Source: Paracrocinitomix mangrovi
Lineage (GTDB): Bacteria; Bacteroidota; Bacteroidia; Flavobacteriales_D; Crocinitomicaceae
Reading direction: 5' to 3'
Length of the DNA: 64,000 nucleotides
Assembly: GCF_019740355.2 (NCBI RefSeq)
Contig: NZ_CP091819.1
Span: forward strand, 2,790,001-2,854,000
Part shown: positions 10,603 through 60,804 of the stretch, piece after piece
Numbering within the stretch: the first letter of the stretch is position 1
Layout of the letters: each line of letters begins with the position of its first letter
The notes under the pieces: generated by a model
What the model saw: the letters and a program-made list of their open reading frames with translations, nothing else
The model's database searches: none
What the model was told of the DNA's origin: nothing
Translations under genes and position numbers: made by a program

Positions 10603-12033
10603 ATGAGCAAAGATAAAGAAATCAACAAGTTAAAGGAGGAATTGCTTGCCCTAAAACAAGAGAATGAAAAATTACGCCAACAACTTAATTTCAGTAATAT
10701 TACTCAAACGGTAACTACCCCTCAAGCCTTCCAAGAAATTTTTTTAAAAGCCGAGCAGAACGTTAGAAAGTATTTTAGCGACAGTGAAAGCATTGCTGAA
10801 AATGGTGAAATCAAGATTAGTGGTGAACGATACATTCTAGTTAGAAGTGCAGCTTTATCCTACGAATTTTTAGACGTATTTAAAGAATTATATAGCAATA
10901 AAACCAAAGAAGAAGCTACACAAATTGGGAACAATTTTTTATTTGACATTGCCCATGTACTCGGTAGAGAAGACGCCAAAGATTTTCACAAGAAAATGAA
11001 GTTGAAAGAACCAATTGAAAGGCTCTCTGCCGGTCCGGTTCACTTTGCGTTTACCGGTTGGGCCAATGTGGAAATTTTACCGGAATGTAACCCCGTACCT
11101 AATGAAAACTTTTATTTAAAATACCATCACCACAATTCATTTGAAGCGCAGTCCTGGATAAAGGCGGGTAAAAAATCTGAAATACCGGTATGTACTATGA
11201 ATAGTGGTTATTCTTCGGGTTGGTGTGAAGAAAGTTTTGGAATACCCCTTACGGCAATTGAAATTGAATGTGAGGCACAAGGTGCTGAGAACTGTACGTT
11301 TATTATGGCGCCACCTAATCGAATCTATGAATATCTTAAAAAAGAAGATTCTAACCGAAAAGATGTGGAATATGAAGTGCCGGTATTTTTTGAACGTAAA
11401 TACAACGAAGATCAATTAAGAGATTCTTTAAAGCAAAAGGAAGTGTTATTGCAGGAGGTTCATCACCGAGTAAAGAATAACCTACAGGTGATTTCAAGCT
11501 TGTTAAATCTTCAAAAAGAAAACATAAAAGACCCTAAACTTAGAAAGGAGTTTGATACAAGTATTGCCCGTGTAAACACTATGGCACGAGTGCAAGAAAT
11601 GATTTATGGTAGCAAGAATTTATCTTCTGTAAACATTGAAAAATACATGTCAAAATTGATAAGGTCACTTTACCAATTTTTTGACCCTACGAAATCTAAA
11701 TTCACTTTTGATGTTAACATAGATGTTGATGAAGTAAAGTTTGATCCGGATGTAGCTATTCCGCTGGGATTAATCATTAATGAAATTGCATTCAATTCCT
11801 TTAAACACGCCTTTGATGAGGAGGGTAATTTTTATATCAAATTGACCCAAAAAGGAGATCAGTATAAATTGATTGCAGGAGACAATGGTAAAGGGATAGA
11901 CCAGGATGTTACGACCAATGGGATAGGTGTTTCTTTAATTAAAATTCTCTGTGATCAAATTGATGCAAAATTGACTATAGACAATTCAACAAAGGGTCTT
12001 GTTTACATTATGGAATTCAATATGAAGCGCTAA
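10603..12033 (+). CDS. Cytosolic sensor histidine kinase with XylR_N/V4R sensor and HisKA_2 core
   Basis: The 476-residue kinase starts with a Lys/Glu-rich coiled coil (residues ~1-35). An XylR_N-like segment follows, with [16 protein letters not shown] near 148, and then a V4R domain (~195-235: [23 protein letters not shown]) of the sort that binds small ligands. The transmitter has HisKA_2 ([11 protein letters not shown], His at 287-288) and HATPase motifs ([19 protein letters not shown]). No membrane segment is present, so it senses an intracellular signal. I prefer ATG 10603 over an in-frame TTG 15 bases upstream. No response regulator is adjacent, so it is an orphan kinase. It converges on eamA with a 4-bp overlap. 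Confidence 0.88.
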
Positions 12034-50492: not shown

Positions 50493-51362
50493 ATGAAAAA
50501 ATTAGTTCCATTTATTTTACTGGCAATTCTGTCTTTTTCATTTACCAATAAGCAAAAAACAAAGAAATTTAAAGGACCTGAAAACTATGTTTTTATCCCA
50601 TCCGGCTCTACAGAGCGTGAAGGTGAGACGTACTCTTGCAACGCATTTTGGATGTCAAAACATGAAGTGACAAATGGAGAATATTTATTCTTCATCAAAC
50701 ACTTAATTGCCAATGGTAAAGAAGAAGATTTAAAAAAAGCTTTACCAGATACTACAAAATGGAAAACCAACACAGGTGGATATTTAGAGCCTTATTATAA
50801 GTATTATTTCAACCATCCATCATACCAAAATTATCCTGTGGTGAATGTTTCAAGAGAAGGAGCGTTGATGTATTGTGAGTATCTAACTCAGCAGTTAAAA
50901 TCTGTATATGGTGATGTAATCCAGAACTTTAGATTGCCTACAGAAAAGGAATGGATGTATGCCGCATCATCCGGCAAAAAAGAAAATGTTTACAGTTGGA
51001 CCGGACCGTATTTGAGGAATGGTGATGGAGATTTTCAAGCCAATTTTGCTCACATTGGAGAGCAAAATATTACTATGACATCTGATGGTCCAAGAGTAGT
51101 AGCAGATTCATTAAGAAAAGAAAATTTTGATTTTCTCGACACCTATATTATTGCGACAGGTGATTCTTATTGGCCAAATGAATTTGGATTGTACAATATG
51201 TGCGGAAATGTTGCAGAAATGGTGAATGAAACTGGGTTCACAAAGGGTGGAAGTTGGAGATCAGGTGGATACGACATTAGAATTGACCACAAGGAAAAAT
51301 TTACCCAAGGCAGCCCTAAAGTAGGTTTTAGACCAGTAATGACTTTTTTGAAAGTTGATTAA
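50493..51362 (+). CDS. Secreted FGE-sulfatase (SUMF1) fold protein lacking the catalytic cysteines
   Basis: A 289-residue exported protein with a signal peptide ending near SFSFTNK. The SUMF1/GldK fold is clear: GENYVFIPSG-like start, FWMSKHEVTNGEYLFFI, YPVVNVSREGALMYCEYL, FRLPTEKEWMYAAS, LYNMCGNVAEMV and a final GGSWRSGG...VGFRPVM. The Cys residues that formylglycine-generating enzymes carry after GGS are absent here (GGSWRSGGYDIRID), so sulfatase activation is not expected. Gliding proteins GldJ/GldK share this fold, but no lipobox or gldLMN genes are present. Non-enzymatic envelope role likely (inference). Confidence 0.82.
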   Translation: MKKLVPFILLAILSFSFTNKQKTKKFKGPENYVFIPSGSTEREGETYSCNAFWMSKHEVTNGEYLFFIKHLIANGKEEDLKKALPDTTKWKTNTGGYLEPYYKYYFNHPSYQNYPVVNVSREGALMYCEYLTQQLKSVYGDVIQNFRLPTEKEWMYAASSGKKENVYSWTGPYLRNGDGDFQANFAHIGEQNITMTSDGPRVVADSLRKENFDFLDTYIIATGDSYWPNEFGLYNMCGNVAEMVNETGFTKGGSWRSGGYDIRIDHKEKFTQGSPKVGFRPVMTFLKVD

Positions 51363-52063
51363 AGTTTTTTAAATACTGACAATACGTCTTTATAAGATGA
51401 ACTTACGGGAATTATTTTTTCACCGATCAACAAACTGCTTTTATCAAAACCATCAACATGATTAATGTTAACCACGAAAGATCTGTGAACTCTTTGTAAT
51501 GTTTCGGACTGAACTTCTTTTTGAAAGTGATTCAAATTAAAAGAAAGGCTGTATTTTTTTTCTTTTGTATGAACTAAACAATAGCTTCCATCTGCTTCAA
51601 TATGAGTGATGTCCTCAATGGGAACTTTTTTATAAAATTCATTGCTTTTGACAAACACTGCATCCACATTATTATTTGATGAAAATTGATGATCAGTGAA
51701 GTTATTAATAGCCAATTCTATTGAGACAATCAGATCTTTTTTGTTATATGGCTTTGTTAAAAAAGCGTGTGGTTTAGTTTGAATGGCTCTGTTAATATAT
51801 TGTTGTCCAGTGTTTGAAGTAATGTAAATTATAGGAACATTTGATGATTTCAGAATTTCTTCTGCCGTCTCAATTCCGTCTAAATCTCCCTTTATATTAA
51901 TATCCATTAAAATGACATCTGGCTTAAATTCTGAGAACATTTCAATGGCTTCCTGACCTGAAATTGCAATTCCGGCCACATGAAACCCTGCATTACTTAA
52001 ATCACTTGAAATATCTTCGGCAATTAGAACTTCATCTTCTACTATGAGTATGGATATTTTCAT
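51359..52063 (-). CDS. LytTR-family response regulator
   Basis: A 234-residue regulator with a receiver domain (1-~120, phospho-acceptor Asp54 in VILMDINIKGD, conserved ED at 9-10, Lys in FLTKPYNKKDL) and a LytTR DNA-binding domain (~135-234: VPIEDITHIEADGSYCLVHT ... LQRVHRSFVVNINHVDGF). Such regulators bind direct repeats. Its start overlaps the partner kinase stop by 4 bp, so they form a cognate pair. A candidate target is the divergent region before 54468. Confidence 0.94.
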   Translation of the reverse strand: MKISILIVEDEVLIAEDISSDLSNAGFHVAGIAISGQEAIEMFSEFKPDVILMDINIKGDLDGIETAEEILKSSNVPIIYITSNTGQQYINRAIQTKPHAFLTKPYNKKDLIVSIELAINNFTDHQFSSNNNVDAVFVKSNEFYKKVPIEDITHIEADGSYCLVHTKEKKYSLSFNLNHFQKEVQSETLQRVHRSFVVNINHVDGFDKSSLLIGEKIIPVSSSYKDVLSVFKKL

Positions 52064-54333
52064 TTGATCAGTTTAAAGTCTTTAATGTGAATAGTATATT
52101 TTAATCCCCCTTGATCTGATAATTCAGTTACGCCATTAATCTGTCTTATAAGTGAGTTTACTAATTTAAATCCAAATGAATCTGAATTTTGTACCTCATT
52201 TACTTTTCCTGAACCATTGTCCTTTACCATAAGTAAAAGTTCATCTTCTTTTTCTTTTAATGATATTTCCAATTGCCCTTTGTTACTTTTATTATAAGCG
52301 TACTTAAGAGCATTAATCACTAGCTCATTAATTATTAATCCTATTGGAATAGCAGAGTCAACATCTAGTTTGATTTGATCTAAATCTGATTTAAATTCAA
52401 ATTCATCTTTACTGTATCCAAATGATTCTAATAATCCTTCAACAAGAGTAGGAATGTATTGTTTCATTTCAATTCCTGAATAATTCTCGTTTTGGTACAG
52501 CAGTTTATGAATTAGTCCCATTGATTTAACTCGTTCCTTCCCTTCCAACATGGCCTTTTTAGCGGCTTCGTCTGAAAGTGATTTCTCGTGTAAACTAAGG
52601 ATACTGGAAATTACTTGTAGATTGTTTTTAACCCTGTGATGAATTTCTCCTAGTAAGAGTTCATTTTCTTTGTTTTTCTCCTTTAATTTCTTCCTATTTA
52701 TATACAAAAGTGAAAGAAGAGAAAGTAAAACAATTGCACCAATTAAAGCAATCAGCAATAGTCTCCCTCTTTGTTCATTTACCAATGATATGTTTTCATT
52801 TTCAACTTGCTGATTTTTAATTTCTAATGTTTGAATTTTAATGGAATCTTCTTTTTCTTTTAATTCATATCTTATGCTCAATCCTTCTGCAGCAGTTGAA
52901 TTTTTTTCAGATTTTAAACTATCCAAAAGTTCAATATACTTTTCGTGGTAGTCAAATACTTCAGGTGTTCCATTTAATGTGCTAAAGGTTTGTATGTAGT
53001 TGTTATAGGCTTTCATCTGAAGCTTCATACTTCCTACTTCTTCTGCAAACTTTACACCTTCATTGATATGATTTTTGGCTTTAGTAAAATCCCCTAATTG
53101 AATATATGCATTTGCCAAAGCCACTTGCCCTTCACCAATAAGTCTTTTATCGTTGATTTGTTGGTAGAGTAACAAACTCTTTTCTAACAACTCGGCAGAA
53201 GCAGCATAGTTTCCTTTTTCTTCTTCAATTACGGCTAAGTTTTGATAAGAAACTCCTAAAAAATTCCAGTTTTCTGTTTTTTTAGATAACTCCTCACTCT
53301 TTTTGTAATAATAATAGCTTGAATCAAGATTACCTGACTCTTTAAATAAACCACCTATGTTAACATATACAGCGGCTAGAAAAGAATCGTTTCCGGCATT
53401 TTTAAAGATAGATTCAGCTTTTTTTAATTCTGATTTTGCACGATCATAGTCTTCATTAAACACGAGTATTTCACCTAAAGCTAATAGTAATTGACCTTGT
53501 TCAATTATTCTGTTTGCACTTTTAAAATAATCTATGGATATGCTTAGATTGATAGCTGCACTATCCATGTTCCCCTTGTAGTAATAAATATTTCCTTTTG
53601 TTCCGTAGACATACCCTAGGTCAACATCATCCTCAGCTAAAAATTCAGCAATTTCAAGCTCTTTTAGCGCTTTATCATATTCACCTAAACCTTCATACAA
53701 ATTGGCCATATTGTTGGATATAGTTTGTAATGATCCCGAATCTTTGGTTTCATATGCCAACATTTTAGCAGGTTTAAAATAATTGAGTGCCGAATCATTG
53801 TGACCCAAATACATAAACATTGCACCTGTATTCACTAAACAATCAACTTGCTGACTTGCATCTTCAGCTATTACTGCTGAGGCATAGCCGTTTTTAAAAT
53901 GTTTAGCTGCCAATTGATATCTACTTGTGTTTTTCAAAAAGTTACCATAGTTCACTTCTGCCCATGCCAACAATTTGTGATCAATGGGATTCGCATTTAA
54001 TTCAAAATCTATAGATGATGAATAAACTTCGTTCGCTTCTTCAATCTTTCCTAATCTTGAAAGAACTCTACCTTGTAAAAAGTATGCAGTTGTAATCCAA
54101 CGGTGATTTTCTTTTTGTTTGGATAGTGACATTAATTTTTCACTGTAAGGCAAGGCATCTTCAGGTTTTGTTGATAGCAGATGCTCCCCAATTTGGGAGA
54201 GTAATTGAAGCTTTTGCTCTTCGTCTTCGGTTTTAGACAATTCAAATTTTAAGCTATCTAAATAACTTTTTGTTGACTGACTAAATGAAATTGAGACGCT
54301 TGCAAAAGCGAGGAGTAGTAGACAAAATTTCAT
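52060..54333 (-). CDS. TPR-containing sensor histidine kinase (HisKA_2 type)
   Basis: A 757-residue membrane kinase. After a signal peptide (~residues 1-18, ASVSISFSQ) come about ten TPR-like repeats (~30-460) placed outside the cytoplasm. One transmembrane helix (~524-546, LLLIALIGAIVLLSLLSLLYI) follows. The cytosolic transmitter has HisKA_2 ([18 protein letters not shown], His565-566) and HATPase (INELVINALKYAY, VKDNGSG). The periplasmic TPR array probably senses a protein or peptide signal. It precedes the LytTR regulator in a two-gene operon. It resembles the orphan V4R kinase at 10603 only in the transmitter. Confidence 0.92.
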   Translation of the reverse strand: MKFCLLLLAFASVSISFSQSTKSYLDSLKFELSKTEDEEQKLQLLSQIGEHLLSTKPEDALPYSEKLMSLSKQKENHRWITTAYFLQGRVLSRLGKIEEANEVYSSSIDFELNANPIDHKLLAWAEVNYGNFLKNTSRYQLAAKHFKNGYASAVIAEDASQQVDCLVNTGAMFMYLGHNDSALNYFKPAKMLAYETKDSGSLQTISNNMANLYEGLGEYDKALKELEIAEFLAEDDVDLGYVYGTKGNIYYYKGNMDSAAINLSISIDYFKSANRIIEQGQLLLALGEILVFNEDYDRAKSELKKAESIFKNAGNDSFLAAVYVNIGGLFKESGNLDSSYYYYKKSEELSKKTENWNFLGVSYQNLAVIEEEKGNYAASAELLEKSLLLYQQINDKRLIGEGQVALANAYIQLGDFTKAKNHINEGVKFAEEVGSMKLQMKAYNNYIQTFSTLNGTPEVFDYHEKYIELLDSLKSEKNSTAAEGLSIRYELKEKEDSIKIQTLEIKNQQVENENISLVNEQRGRLLLIALIGAIVLLSLLSLLYINRKKLKEKNKENELLLGEIHHRVKNNLQVISSILSLHEKSLSDEAAKKAMLEGKERVKSMGLIHKLLYQNENYSGIEMKQYIPTLVEGLLESFGYSKDEFEFKSDLDQIKLDVDSAIPIGLIINELVINALKYAYNKSNKGQLEISLKEKEDELLLMVKDNGSGKVNEVQNSDSFGFKLVNSLIRQINGVTELSDQGGLKYTIHIKDFKLIK

Positions 54334-54467
54334 TTACAAACTGTTTTGAGTCGTTCACAAATGTAAGCAATTGACTCACAAAATAGTAGAAAGTCCTTCA
54401 AAACAACATACAGACCTTTGACCTGATTCATATTTATGAGTCGGTTAGTCACTAAAAAGAAAGAAAA
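54334..54467. promoter_or_regulatory. Divergent control region with repeated TGAGTC elements
   Basis: This 134-bp gap between the kinase operon and the secreted-protein operon carries TTTTGAGTCG (54344-54353) and TTATGAGTCG (54434-54443), 90 bp apart and matching at 9 of 10 positions. An inverted TTGACTCACAAAA lies at 54371-54383. LytTR regulators usually bind direct repeats, so these are candidate operators. Spacing differs from the typical ~21 bp, so the link is tentative. Confidence 0.4.
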
Positions 54468-55493
54468 ATGAAAAAGTCAATTTTTACAATTGCGCTCATG
54501 GGTCTGATATTTGGCTCATGTTCAAAAAAAGTGGAGGTTTGTGTTGATGGCGACATGAACCCAGAATTGCCTGGTACTTATACATATACCTGGTGTGGAA
54601 TTAATGCCGAACATGTTGATTGGCAGTCTAGTTGGGGTCCAACATATTCTGGTCATTCAATTAATGTTGATTTTGAAACAAAAGGCTTGTATTCGTTATA
54701 CGTTACTGGTTACAACGGCAAAAAAGAATCAAGTCAGAATTATTCAATTCAGGTTGGATCTTATGAAGCAAGAGTTGAGCCTCTTGATTGTGGAGCTAAT
54801 CACATCTCCAATTCCGGAATGGAGATTCGTGCCTATGCTTATTTGAGTGTTGATGATCTAGACACTGATTTACACAATGCTGATAAAGTTCATTGTGTAG
54901 ACTCAATAGATCTGGCCCTTGACAATTACATTAATGGAACAGTAGGTTCAAATTATTATCAGGCAGGAGGTTTTACAACCCTTGGTGATGGAACTTATTT
55001 CATTTATGTGCAGGATATCAATTCAGGACAGAATAATCTGCAATCTATTCACCAGTCTCCTTATTCAAGTGCTTTGTACGTGTATAACGGAACAACTGAT
55101 GACAAAGTAAATCCTACACTTAATCAGAATTCTTCTAATTCTTTTTATGAATTGGTTAGCAAGGAGTATATCCTTACTGATTTATGGATAAATGGAGCAA
55201 CAACTCCGGTTTCTGCTTGCAATGCAGATGATGTAATTACTTTTCATTTAGATGGAACCTGGACGCATGATGTTGGTGCAGATGATTGCTCTGGTAATCA
55301 AACAAACAGTACAGGTAACTTTTACATTGACGCTTGTCACGATATATCCAGTATACAGTATCAACTGACGGTTAATGGAGGCACATGGTCTACAGCTTCT
55401 GTACAATTAAATTGCAACAGCTCAGGAAATACAATTGATATCACATTGTATCAAGGTGGAAACACTATTCTTCAAAAGTATACAGCACAATAA
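54468..55493 (+). CDS. Lipoprotein with a C-terminal lipocalin-like region, 341 aa
   Basis: Signal and lipobox FGSC (Cys18). Residues ~28-100 look like a PKD/Ig domain (LPGTYTYTWCGINAEHVDWQ). Residues ~110-215 are of unknown fold. The C-terminal ~115 residues, with Cys251, Asp254-Asp255, Phe259, Asp262, Thr264 and Cys274, follow the lipocalin-like pattern of envelope lipoproteins. The same spacing of residues occurs in the third gene of this run. First gene of a three-gene operon (19 bp to the next). Function unknown. Confidence 0.72.
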   Translation: MKKSIFTIALMGLIFGSCSKKVEVCVDGDMNPELPGTYTYTWCGINAEHVDWQSSWGPTYSGHSINVDFETKGLYSLYVTGYNGKKESSQNYSIQVGSYEARVEPLDCGANHISNSGMEIRAYAYLSVDDLDTDLHNADKVHCVDSIDLALDNYINGTVGSNYYQAGGFTTLGDGTYFIYVQDINSGQNNLQSIHQSPYSSALYVYNGTTDDKVNPTLNQNSSNSFYELVSKEYILTDLWINGATTPVSACNADDVITFHLDGTWTHDVGADDCSGNQTNSTGNFYIDACHDISSIQYQLTVNGGTWSTASVQLNCNSSGNTIDITLYQGGNTILQKYTAQ

Positions 55494-55512
55494 TCTTTAA
55501 AAAATCAATAAA

Positions 55513-56208
55513 ATGAAAAAATTTATAACAACAGCTTTGGCTATGTGCATGGTTTTTGCTGCCATGGCCGGAGGAAAAGAAACCCTAATTGAACAAATTA
55601 AAAACAAGGGAAAAGTAAATGTTTACATTCAATTTGCACCAATCGCACATGACCCGGGTTCGGCAACAGGATCTACATCACCTTGTGTAGCGAGCAAATT
55701 CAAAGAAACTTCAGAGTTTACTGAGGAATACAAGGCTCATTCACAAAAAATAGTGGACCTGTTAAACAAGCAGCTAAAATTAACTGAGCTTGCTTTAGGT
55801 GATTTGTCTACTATTCCTGTAAAGAGTGAAATGAATGACATGAAAATCTATGATTGGGCAAAATCAGGCGAAAAGTTTTTTGGATTGATTACCGTTTCAG
55901 GATCTTATAAAGCTACTGCTAGTACAACTACAAGTGAAATAGAAAATGCTTTGTGGATTCCGTCCAGATTGATGTTTATTGAAATGAAGGACAATGGCGG
56001 AATGAGTTTTATTGAACAAACTTCACTTGGTACAGCTATGTCTGAAAAAAAGATGAGCACGGGCTGTGAAAAATACGCCTATTTCAAGGAAAACTTCCCA
56101 ATCAATGATTTACTGCAAAAGTTTCAGGAAGGATACGAAAGTAAAATTGAAGATTTTGCCTTGAAACAATTAAAAAAGTACGATAAAGCACAGAAAAAGA
56201 AAAAATAA
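55513..56208 (+). CDS. Secreted protein of unknown function, 231 aa
   Basis: Sec signal MKKFITTALAMCMVFAAMAG, no lipobox. The mature protein is alpha/beta with a Lys-rich helical C-terminus (GYESKIEDFALKQLKKYDKAQKKKK) and two Cys residues (SPC and TGC). I do not recognise the family. It lies between two lipoproteins that share a motif, 19 bp after the first and 5 bp before the third, so it is co-transcribed and probably acts with them in the envelope. Confidence 0.7.
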   Translation: MKKFITTALAMCMVFAAMAGGKETLIEQIKNKGKVNVYIQFAPIAHDPGSATGSTSPCVASKFKETSEFTEEYKAHSQKIVDLLNKQLKLTELALGDLSTIPVKSEMNDMKIYDWAKSGEKFFGLITVSGSYKATASTTTSEIENALWIPSRLMFIEMKDNGGMSFIEQTSLGTAMSEKKMSTGCEKYAYFKENFPINDLLQKFQEGYESKIEDFALKQLKKYDKAQKKKK

Positions 56209-56213
56209 TAGAA

Positions 56214-56963
56214 ATGAAAAAGTCTTATATAATAATGATGGCATCTGTGTTAATGATGTCATGTTCAAAAGAAACCGAGTTTGATATAAACACAATGGAT
56301 CAAGATCAAGCAGCACTTGGAAATGTAGAAGTAAAGCTTTTTGGTTCATATGAGGGATGGTTAGCAGAAAATTCACCTGCTTATACATTTACTTCAGATG
56401 CAAACGGAAAAATCAATGTCACTGAAAAAGTAACTTCCGGGAACTATTGGATTTGGGCAGAAAAAGGTGATTATTCTAGTTGGATTGGCACTACAAGTAG
56501 TGAAACAGTCCCAAAAATCACAGTAGAAAAAGGAGAAATTGTAAACTTTGATGTTACACTCAATGAAAATTATCATCAGTATCTGGCCGGTGAAAAATGG
56601 AAGTTGGTTGATTATGTAAACAGCAGTGGAACTTCATTTTGGAATGCAATGGGTTCATGTTATCAAGACGATTTTCTTGAATTTAACAGAGACATGACAT
56701 TTTATTTTGACGGTGGAGATGAAGTTTGTACAGGTTGGCCTCAAAAACAGGATCTTCCTATAGATATAGTAAAGTCTGCTTCAGACAAAGTTGAAATGCA
56801 ATACTTTGGACCTTGCTATAAGTTGAATAGTACAATTCATACAGATCCGGATGGTTTTTCATGGAATTTTTACTTACAAGATGAATCAGCTAGCACGCAA
56901 TACATCATCATGTCATATGACACTACAGCAGTTTTGAACTTAATCTTTGAGAAAGCATTGTAA
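56214..56963 (+). CDS. Lipoprotein with a lipocalin-like C-terminal region, 249 aa
   Basis: The N-terminus MMASVLMMSCSK gives a lipobox with Cys at about residue 17. Residues ~35-110 resemble a Cna-B/carboxypeptidase-regulatory beta-sandwich (VEVKLFGSYEGWL ... SGNYWIWAEKGDYSSWIG). The C-terminal domain starts GEKWKLVDYVNSSG and holds Cys149, Asp152-Asp153, Phe157, Asp160, Thr162 and Cys172, then a further Cys. This matches the first gene of the operon residue for residue in spacing. A terminator follows. Confidence 0.72.
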   Translation: MKKSYIIMMASVLMMSCSKETEFDINTMDQDQAALGNVEVKLFGSYEGWLAENSPAYTFTSDANGKINVTEKVTSGNYWIWAEKGDYSSWIGTTSSETVPKITVEKGEIVNFDVTLNENYHQYLAGEKWKLVDYVNSSGTSFWNAMGSCYQDDFLEFNRDMTFYFDGGDEVCTGWPQKQDLPIDIVKSASDKVEMQYFGPCYKLNSTIHTDPDGFSWNFYLQDESASTQYIIMSYDTTAVLNLIFEKAL

Positions 56964-59040: not shown

Positions 59041-59073
59041 AACTTTTTGTAATTGATTGGTTATATTGATGCC

Positions 59074-60804
59074 ATGAAACCCAAAATCCTTTTATCAATT
59101 TTACTAGTTTATAGTGCGGTGAGTTTTGCTCAGAAAAAATCTATTGGAATCCATGTAGATGTATTAGGAGCTAAGAATGATTATTGCAGATATTATCATC
59201 CCATTGAAGGAGTTTATGAGATAAGCGATTCCCTACTTGAATTTGACAAAAAACAACTTAAAAAGTTAAAAGGACTTCATCTGATTCAGCCAATAGGCCT
59301 GGTAGAAAACAAATCTCATATTCAGGCTAATAGCTTGAGGTATCATATTGACCCCAATGATCTGTTGTATGTTAATTGGGGAATTGGCAGGGCAGATTCT
59401 GCTGCTAAATATGCTCTTTTGGATTCATTTGCGCAAGTTTCAGAAAGTGTCAGAAAAGAGAAGTACCAACAGCTTGTGATGGATTATTTCAATCCCTTTT
59501 TTATCAAACGCCACGAAGTAACTAATTATGAATATCGTGAGTTTGTTTTTTGGGTAAGGGATTCTTTGTTTAGAGAAGAGATTTATAAGTGCGATTCAAT
59601 TCCTAAAATGGAAAGATTGGCTATGCTTGACATTCCGGATGAGGTGAGGAAGTATGGAATTATGGACGAAGGAGGAGATACAAAGTACGAGGATTTTGAT
59701 CCTTTTATTTCAAGAGGAATTTATTCATTCAAGCAAGATATTAATTTGCCAAAAATGATTGAAAAATATCCTTTTTTGAAAGACAGTTTGAGAAAGTTTT
59801 ATTTGGATCCAAATGAACGCTGGTTTAAAAGAAGAGAAATAGATGTTAAGCAATTTAAGTACAAGTACTACACCATTGAATTATCAAAAGGAAAAGATTT
59901 AACTCAAAATAGAGGTAGGTATATACTTGAACACTCAATTCCGGTTTACCCAGACACATTGGTTTGGGTGAAAGGATATATGCATGAATGGAATGACGCA
60001 TTTACCAATATGTATTTTTGGCATCCGGCTTATGACAATTATCCGGTAGTAGGAATTTCATACGAACAAGCGTTGGCATTTTGTGATTGGAAAGAGAAAA
60101 TGTTAAGACTTGAACATCCTGAAATTTTCAGGTATTCTTCTTTGGGCCTACCTCGTCTTTACGAATATGAATGGGCTTTGATGGAAGGCAAATCCTACGA
60201 TTTGGCCAGCAATATTCAAGACAATCACATTTTGACAGATCTGGATTTGGGCGTTAATAAGGAAAGAGCAAAATTGATTGAAAAGAAAGACAGCTTGTAT
60301 AACTTCTACACCAATAAAGTATGGATGCCGTGTGATGAAACTGACCCCAAATGTAGAAAACAGTTAAAACTGTTGCTAAAGCGATTTGAGAAACACGCCA
60401 AGTATAATAAAATTGAAGAATTGATGAAGATGAGGGCGTATCAAAATCACCTAATCAACAATGTTGATTTTTTATCTAACAATGTTTCAGAATGGATGGA
60501 TGAAGATTTTAAATCCAATTATCAGGAATTAGCAGAAGCTTATCTGAATTATAATTGCCTGGTTAGTGTAGAGTATTGTGAAGATCAACGAAATATTGAT
60601 TACAGAAAAATCAGACAAAATGATCAGGAAGGAAAGTTAATATTGGGATCTAATTGGTTTGATGAAAGGTATGAAAATGTTTACGGTGTTAATGTTGCCG
60701 GAATTCACGCCAAGACATTCCAACATCCTGACTCCTCATTTAGTACAGTTGGATTTAGATACGTCATCAGGCTTAAACCAACATATTATACCTGGAATTA
60801 CTAA
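59074..60804 (+). CDS. Large secreted FGE-sulfatase-fold protein without catalytic cysteines, 576 aa
   Basis: Start at ATG 59074, giving the signal MKPKILLSILLVYSAVSFAQ; a TTG seven codons upstream is unlikely. No lipobox. SUMF1-fold landmarks are FIKRHEVTNYEYREFVFW (~145-165), YPVVGISYEQALAFCDWKEKML (~325), GLPRLYEYEWALM, NNVSEWMDEDF and a final VGFRYVIRLK. The domain is broken by long insertions, as in GldJ/GldK proteins. There is no Cys pair near the C-terminus, so formylglycine formation is excluded by known FGE chemistry. A gliding/T9SS-like structural role is possible but no gld genes flank it. Confidence 0.8.
   Translation: MKPKILLSILLVYSAVSFAQKKSIGIHVDVLGAKNDYCRYYHPIEGVYEISDSLLEFDKKQLKKLKGLHLIQPIGLVENKSHIQANSLRYHIDPNDLLYVNWGIGRADSAAKYALLDSFAQVSESVRKEKYQQLVMDYFNPFFIKRHEVTNYEYREFVFWVRDSLFREEIYKCDSIPKMERLAMLDIPDEVRKYGIMDEGGDTKYEDFDPFISRGIYSFKQDINLPKMIEKYPFLKDSLRKFYLDPNERWFKRREIDVKQFKYKYYTIELSKGKDLTQNRGRYILEHSIPVYPDTLVWVKGYMHEWNDAFTNMYFWHPAYDNYPVVGISYEQALAFCDWKEKMLRLEHPEIFRYSSLGLPRLYEYEWALMEGKSYDLASNIQDNHILTDLDLGVNKERAKLIEKKDSLYNFYTNKVWMPCDETDPKCRKQLKLLLKRFEKHAKYNKIEELMKMRAYQNHLINNVDFLSNNVSEWMDEDFKSNYQELAEAYLNYNCLVSVEYCEDQRNIDYRKIRQNDQEGKLILGSNWFDERYENVYGVNVAGIHAKTFQHPDSSFSTVGFRYVIRLKPTYYTWNY

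Follow-up and report, generated by a model that had tools for sequence, protein, structure and literature searches.

Results

Organization of the locus

The window, i.e., the whole stretch of 64,000 nucleotides of Paracrocinitomix mangrovi DNA that was analysed, contains a TPR sensor kinase gene and a LytTR regulator gene that are divergent from three co-oriented genes for secreted or lipid-anchored proteins (Table 1), and the coordinates, strands and domains given for these five genes in a preliminary description were confirmed. Pfam families PF00072 and PF04397 were both found above their cut-offs in the regulator, i.e., it consists of a receiver fused to a LytTR domain; its score against the NCBIfam model of the SusR-type glycan regulators was 34.1 bits, below the cut-off of 480. 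Receiver residue Asp54 (D54) was invariant across the six regulators compared. As read from the sequence, the kinase has a signal-like N-terminus and a probable transmembrane segment near residues 524–546, and its histidine motif, ENELLLGEIHHRVKNN, was identical in the three kinases aligned (from the window genome and genomes G010 and G086). The kinase and regulator genes overlap by 4 bp, and a gap of 134 bp separates the kinase gene from the gene for output 1. All three outputs have signal- or lipobox-like starts according to a simple custom scorer, and no Pfam family above cut-off was found in any of them.

Table 1 Features of the kinase–regulator locus and of the intergenic gap (positions in the window)
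Feature	Position	Strand	Remarks
LytTR response regulator, 234 aa	51359–52063	-	Receiver and LytTR domains; Pfam Response_reg 2.9e-22, LytTR 2.2e-16
Sensor kinase, 757 aa	52060–54333	-	Pfam TPRs, HisKA_2, HATPase
Candidate operator, three direct repeats with a period of 21 bp	54335–54382	-	TTTGTG 54377–54382, TTTGTG 54356–54361, TTTGTA 54335–54340
Predicted -7 box of the kinase promoter, TACATTTG	54358–54365	-	Embedded in the middle repeat
Putative -7 box for the secreted operon, GACCTTTG	54413–54420	+	Differs from TAnnTTTG at one position; begins 30 bp beyond the last repeat
Output 1, lipoprotein with PKD-like N-terminal domain, 341 aa	54468–55493	+
Output 2, secreted protein, 231 aa	55513–56208	+
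Output 3, probable lipoprotein (lipobox-like MMSC), 249 aa	56214–56963	+	Assigned by operon position only

Several neighbouring features were recorded in addition. The module is flanked by GldK-like proteins with FGE-sulfatase domains (50493–51362 and 59053–60804), which scored 138.9 and 161.5 bits, below the GldK cut-off of 350, and the first of their genes overlaps the regulator gene tail to tail by 4 bp (51359–51362). A second kinase of the window (10603–12033) has a HisKA_2-like catalytic part, matching the module kinase with 122.9 bits, and lacks the repeats described below.

Distribution of the kinase subfamily

The kinase search in 59 relatives yielded many paralogs and one close relative, in G010 (47% identity over residues 457–756). 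A profile made from three catalytic domains (window genome, G010 and G086) was then searched in 240 genomes of the family, giving scores of about 390 bits for these three, 292 for G066, 282 for G377 and 207 for the next match; the subfamily, delimited by the gap between 282 and 207 bits and with three of its five members having built the defining profile, is thus present in five of the 240 genomes, referred to here as module genomes. At all five loci, the regulator gene lies directly downstream of the kinase gene, and a gene for a predicted secreted protein diverges from it across a gap of 112–138 bp. Of the other kinases in the fetched loci, 43 in number and taken from chosen loci, not a random sample, 19 had a regulator downstream, so that kinase–LytTR pairs built in this general way are recurrent in these bacteria; one of the 19 (L043) had a divergent secreted gene as well. 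The window regulator was 43–61% identical to the four other module regulators.

The module is known from five loci only, two of them from one genus. Neighbouring genes differ among the window, G010 and G066 loci; G086, G377 and a further genome, G097, belong to one genus and have common neighbour genes. Extension of the search to 399 genomes of the order, family members already searched among them, added a single intermediate (237 bits) in G174, which represents another family of the order and carries a related kinase–regulator pair without the repeats and without a divergent secreted gene. The regulator tree grouped the five module regulators with that of G174 at 100/99; in the kinase tree, the five did not form a clade, with G010 placed outside and G174 among the others, at weak support.

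Direct repeats in the intergenic gap

Three TTTRTR words at exact 21-bp steps were found on the kinase strand in all five module gaps, the third repeat of G377 being one letter off (TTTGCG). In the window they take the form TTTGTR, a feature that the preliminary description had overlooked. Relative to the kinase start, the repeats are located at -49/-28/-7 in the window, G010 and G066, at -59/-38/-17 in G086 and at -80/-59/-38 in G377; the pattern had been recorded from the first three loci before those of G066 and G377 turned up. All words at spacings of 10–35 were compared with 1000 dinucleotide-shuffled sets of five gaps. Among 5-mers, TTTGT at spacing 21 was common to all five gaps, against a shuffle maximum of three; among 6-mers, TTTGTG at the same spacing occurred in three of five gaps, against at most two in the shuffles; for 4-mers, five of five was reached by 2 of the 1000 shuffled sets. 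The pair TTTGT-N16-TTTGT was located upstream of 5/5 subfamily kinases and of 0/43 others, two of which had fewer than 160 upstream bases. A CRP-like reading of TTTGTGA was rejected, as the repeats are direct and not inverted, judged from the sequence. The array is a candidate LytTR operator: the genes, their arrangement, the repeats, their spacing and their co-occurrence are established by comparison, and binding by this regulator, activation, autorepression, phosphotransfer and periplasmic sensing are inferred.

Another word, TGAGTC, had been proposed earlier as a shared regulatory element of this gap. Its two direct copies, TTTTGAGTCG at 54344 and TTATGAGTCG at 54434, are present as described, and the inverted GACTCAC is located at 54373–54379, not at 54371. 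None of the four orthologous gaps contains the word, whose absence ruled it out as the operator; a direct-repeat array is indeed conserved, as had been expected, with TTTRTR as its word. Three copies of TGAGTC in 134 bp are rare for that single word (Poisson 2e-5), and some 6-mer with at least three G/C occurs at least three times in 77 of 2000 randomly drawn 134-bp segments of the window.

Genome scans for the triple repeat

In the five whole module genomes, the triple with at most one mismatch gave 13 matches versus 4 for the reversed control. The exact triple occurred there at six sites, with no control matches, namely at the kinase loci of four genomes and at two further positions in G010. 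The first is placed 56 bp ahead of a gene (554 aa) belonging to the 413-aa family (see below); as the G010 draft consists of about 400 contigs, location on another contig is the sole evidence that this site is separate from the kinase. The second (L102:1770-1817, G010:C72) lies 91 bp before the gene for a 1232-aa Reg_prop/Y_Y_Y/SpoIIE protein, a position that suggests a link to a second signalling protein. Both are oriented to their gene as in the kinase loci.

Across 200 family genomes, the exact triple was detected in 17 (4/5 module genomes and 13/195 others). Outside the module genomes, it represents background, since 20 sites were found against 20 control matches. Ten of these 20 sites, in three genomes, were 7-bp microsatellites; of the remaining ten, only that of G063 starts with TTTGTG, and it is located inside a kinase gene. 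The two-word pattern TTTGTG-N15-TTTGTR was mostly background, with 40 matches in the five genomes versus 28 in the control, and was not used as evidence because it is too common.

Promoter geometry around the repeats

In the direction of the secreted gene, 6/7 operators have a -7 box (TAnnTTTG, no more than one mismatch; perfect in three) that begins 29–30 bp beyond the last repeat; the exception is G010:C72, which faces the Reg_prop/SpoIIE protein. This spacing was noticed first and tested afterwards: with any gap allowed, none of 3000 shuffled sets equalled 6/7, the best reaching 3/7. No TTG was found 16–24 bp upstream of any of these -7 boxes. In Flavobacterium psychrophilum, the -7 box spans positions -12 to -5 according to the available text of PMC9723704, so that transcription of the window secreted operon would start near 54425, which places the closest repeat at about -43 to -48. 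On the kinase strand, the middle repeat itself is a perfect TAnnTTTG in four of the five kinase loci and has one mismatch in G010; in both operators facing no kinase it has two mismatches. This arrangement suggests a kinase promoter built into the operator, through which the regulator would limit its own synthesis.

Output genes

The five genes do not form a conserved unit, as had been thought possible: among 150 family genomes, output 1 was found in one relative, output 2 in another and output 3 in none besides its own. The G010 homolog of output 1 is 40% identical and occupies the same place, facing the orthologous kinase–regulator pair without outputs 2 and 3; it and the window gene were also the only two among the 399 genomes of the order. 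Output 2 was found in the window genome and G086 (E 4e-11), where the homolog, 29% identical, is directly divergent from the module kinase of another such pair. Consequently, the three genes were not encountered apart from the pair in most relatives, the outcome that would have spoken against the proposed module; the sole homolog each of outputs 1 and 2 adjoins the pair (150 family and 399 order genomes for output 1; 150 of the 240 family genomes for output 2).

A search of genome contigs with a two-row alignment of output 1 gave one locus, JAKSBJ010000276.1 from a Flavobacteriales MAG, position-matched to G010:C41; the single-query contig search had returned 17 pattern matches, none of them a relative. 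The structure model of output 1 was poor overall (mean pLDDT 44), with a confident part at about residues 20–97, and this N-terminal part matched PKD domains in structure comparison (best E 2.4e-4), which hints at surface binding, and at no more than that. The C-terminal motif reported to be common to two outputs corresponds to a match between outputs 1 and 3, which is weak (29.7% over 64 aa, E 0.02–0.03; hhalign probability 6%, E 0.006). The C-termini of several outputs gave a lipocalin-like impression in their sequence patterns, and no such relationship is claimed here.

The outputs vary between module genomes, and a secreted family of 413 aa is the commonest. It provides the output gene in G086, G066 and G377, in G066 as the second gene, 170 bp behind a first one that carries a type IX sorting domain. 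Four of its proteins are 34–48% identical to the G377 member, and the family has no Pfam entry. Its structure model (66.9) gave no match at E 0.001 or better, and no sequence relative was found in the PDB (best E 0.17). The 209-aa protein of G377 was considered as a relative of output 2, and no relationship was detectable.

Strong matches to the 413-aa family (at least 125 bits) were obtained in 6/240 family genomes and weak ones (at most 36 bits) in three. These six include every one of the five module genomes (hypergeometric 9e-10, uncorrected for kinship, with three of the six coming from one genus). The member in the window genome is a divergent 353-aa protein located 420 kb away and lacking repeats. 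G097 is syntenic with G377 and there lacks the kinase, the regulator and the 209-aa gene, with the 413-aa gene kept; no subfamily kinase was found elsewhere in this genome, and no 21-bp repeats precede its 413-aa gene.

In G174, the sole genome looked at outside this taxonomic family, a relative of the 413-aa family is located at L132:2720-4324, with no repeats upstream. The family thus extends beyond the module genomes.

Discussion

The preliminary description had taken the locus for a self-contained module of TPR sensor, LytTR regulator and secreted outputs, and this proposal is supported by the comparison, as 5/5 subfamily kinases keep the regulator, a divergent secreted gene and the 21-bp repeats. 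We consider it likely that the pair constitutes a two-component regulon in which a LytTR operator of three repeats serves to activate envelope or secreted proteins that are exchangeable. In such a regulon, the kinase would use its periplasmic TPR array to sense an envelope signal and would phosphorylate the LytTR regulator, whose gene follows directly downstream; this regulator would bind the three repeats, which read TTTRTR on the kinase strand and YAYAAA on the secreted-gene strand and are 21 bp apart; once bound, it would activate the promoter of the secreted operon, which has a -7 box and no TTG at the -33 spacings searched; and the products would be exchangeable envelope or secreted proteins. 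The kinase promoter, with the middle repeat as its -7 box, lies under the same operator, so that the bound regulator probably also damps its own synthesis and the module is probably autoregulated. The combination of regulator and divergent secreted gene in 5/5 subfamily kinases versus 1/43 others supports the regulon, and the agreement of the repeat geometry with published LytTR sites, as given in the available text of PMC6193735 and PMC11347149, was likewise counted in its favour, as were the score gap, the repeats with their shuffle and control comparisons, the further G010 site before a 413-family gene, the -7 box spacing, the co-occurrence with the 413-aa family and the state of G097. Counted against it were the G010:C72 operator without a -7 box at the expected place, the 413-family member of the window genome without repeats, the G174 pair without repeats or a divergent secreted gene, the kinase tree in which the five form no clade, the small number of loci, the draft state of G010, a repeat word unlike the published ones and a -7 box spacing that was noticed ahead of its test.

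The position of the kinase -7 box inside the middle repeat would also suit a regulator whose binding to the repeats serves chiefly to repress the secreted operon or its own genes, and a precedent is described in the available text of PMC11347149, where CoxC represses its target through three LytTR repeats. We regard this as unlikely, for on the secreted strand the -7 box follows the end of the repeats by 29–30 bp, a geometry similar to that of activating LytTR sites, which in the available text of PMC6193735 consist of 9-bp repeats with mostly 12-bp spacers just upstream of -35. The lack of a TTG 16–24 bp upstream of the -7 boxes and the two further G010 operators, which face no kinase and precede another gene by 56 and 91 bp, also speak for activation rather than repression.

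A TTTG element belongs to the -7 consensus of Bacteroidota, and its overlap with the middle repeat in the kinase loci invites the explanation that the repeats are promoter sequence only, or the site of another factor, and have nothing to do with the regulator. This is very improbable: the usual promoter spacing is not 21 bp, the 21-bp pair was found in 0/43 other kinases, and the repeats recur before the 413-family gene of G010 that faces no kinase and are missing from G097, which lacks the pair. Finally, an ordinary two-component pair that happens to lie beside unrelated secreted genes would account for outputs that differ between genomes and for an output 3 without homologs in 150 family genomes, and it is hardly credible in view of the 5/5 arrangement, the recurring output families and the operator and promoter geometry.

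The proposed activating regulon can be compared with several known systems. AgrA and YpdB are LytTR response regulators with kinase partners that act at direct repeats about two helix turns apart. The window pair resembles them in its receiver–LytTR regulator, its kinase partner and its repeats about two turns apart; in contrast, its kinase is of the HisKA_2 type and is predicted to have a periplasmic TPR array, its repeats are three in number and consist of another word, and one operator lies between the divergent regulator and secreted genes. FimR belongs to a regulator class other than LytTR. Its partner in Porphyromonas gingivalis, FimS, is a periplasmic TPR histidine kinase controlling surface proteins (PMC11053733, available text) and is similar in this respect; however, the window kinase is not a FimS by NCBIfam (77.8 bits against a cut-off of 600), and the outputs differ.

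The operators of RcoM1 and CoxC consist of three direct repeats at 18–21-bp steps (two helix turns) bound by LytTR domains, and the window array shares this design; unlike the window regulator, RcoM1 and CoxC sense CO themselves, have no kinase–regulator pair and use the words TTCNNGCA and TTNNNGCN (PMC11347149, available text). The window word differs from the published LytTR words. The LRS systems HdrRM and BrsRM likewise have repeats just upstream of the target promoter, but their partner is a membrane inhibitor, whereas that of the window regulator is a HisKA_2 kinase, which places the pair outside the LRS as described in the available text of PMC6193735. The separate parts are therefore already known (three LytTR repeats in RcoM1/CoxC, PMC11347149; a periplasmic TPR kinase in FimS, PMC11053733, both as far as their available text goes). 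Among the matches listed from the open-licence literature, neither an operator for such kinase–LytTR pairs nor the combination of HisKA_2 kinase, window repeat word, bidirectional arrangement and 413-aa output was found.

What emerges is a candidate operator at base-pair level, with its promoter geometry, for a kinase–LytTR pair. It comes with a putative member of the regulon outside the cluster, with G097 as a case of natural loss, and with an output family that has no entry in Pfam. On a wider and more tentative view, which we hold to be possible and rather doubtful, this would be a Flavobacteriales cassette in which kinase, regulator and one bidirectional triple-repeat operator are inherited as a unit, at genomic sites that differ, and the secreted genes are exchanged, with the 413-aa family, a new one, as the ancestral output and a TPR array that may sense the very envelope proteins it controls.
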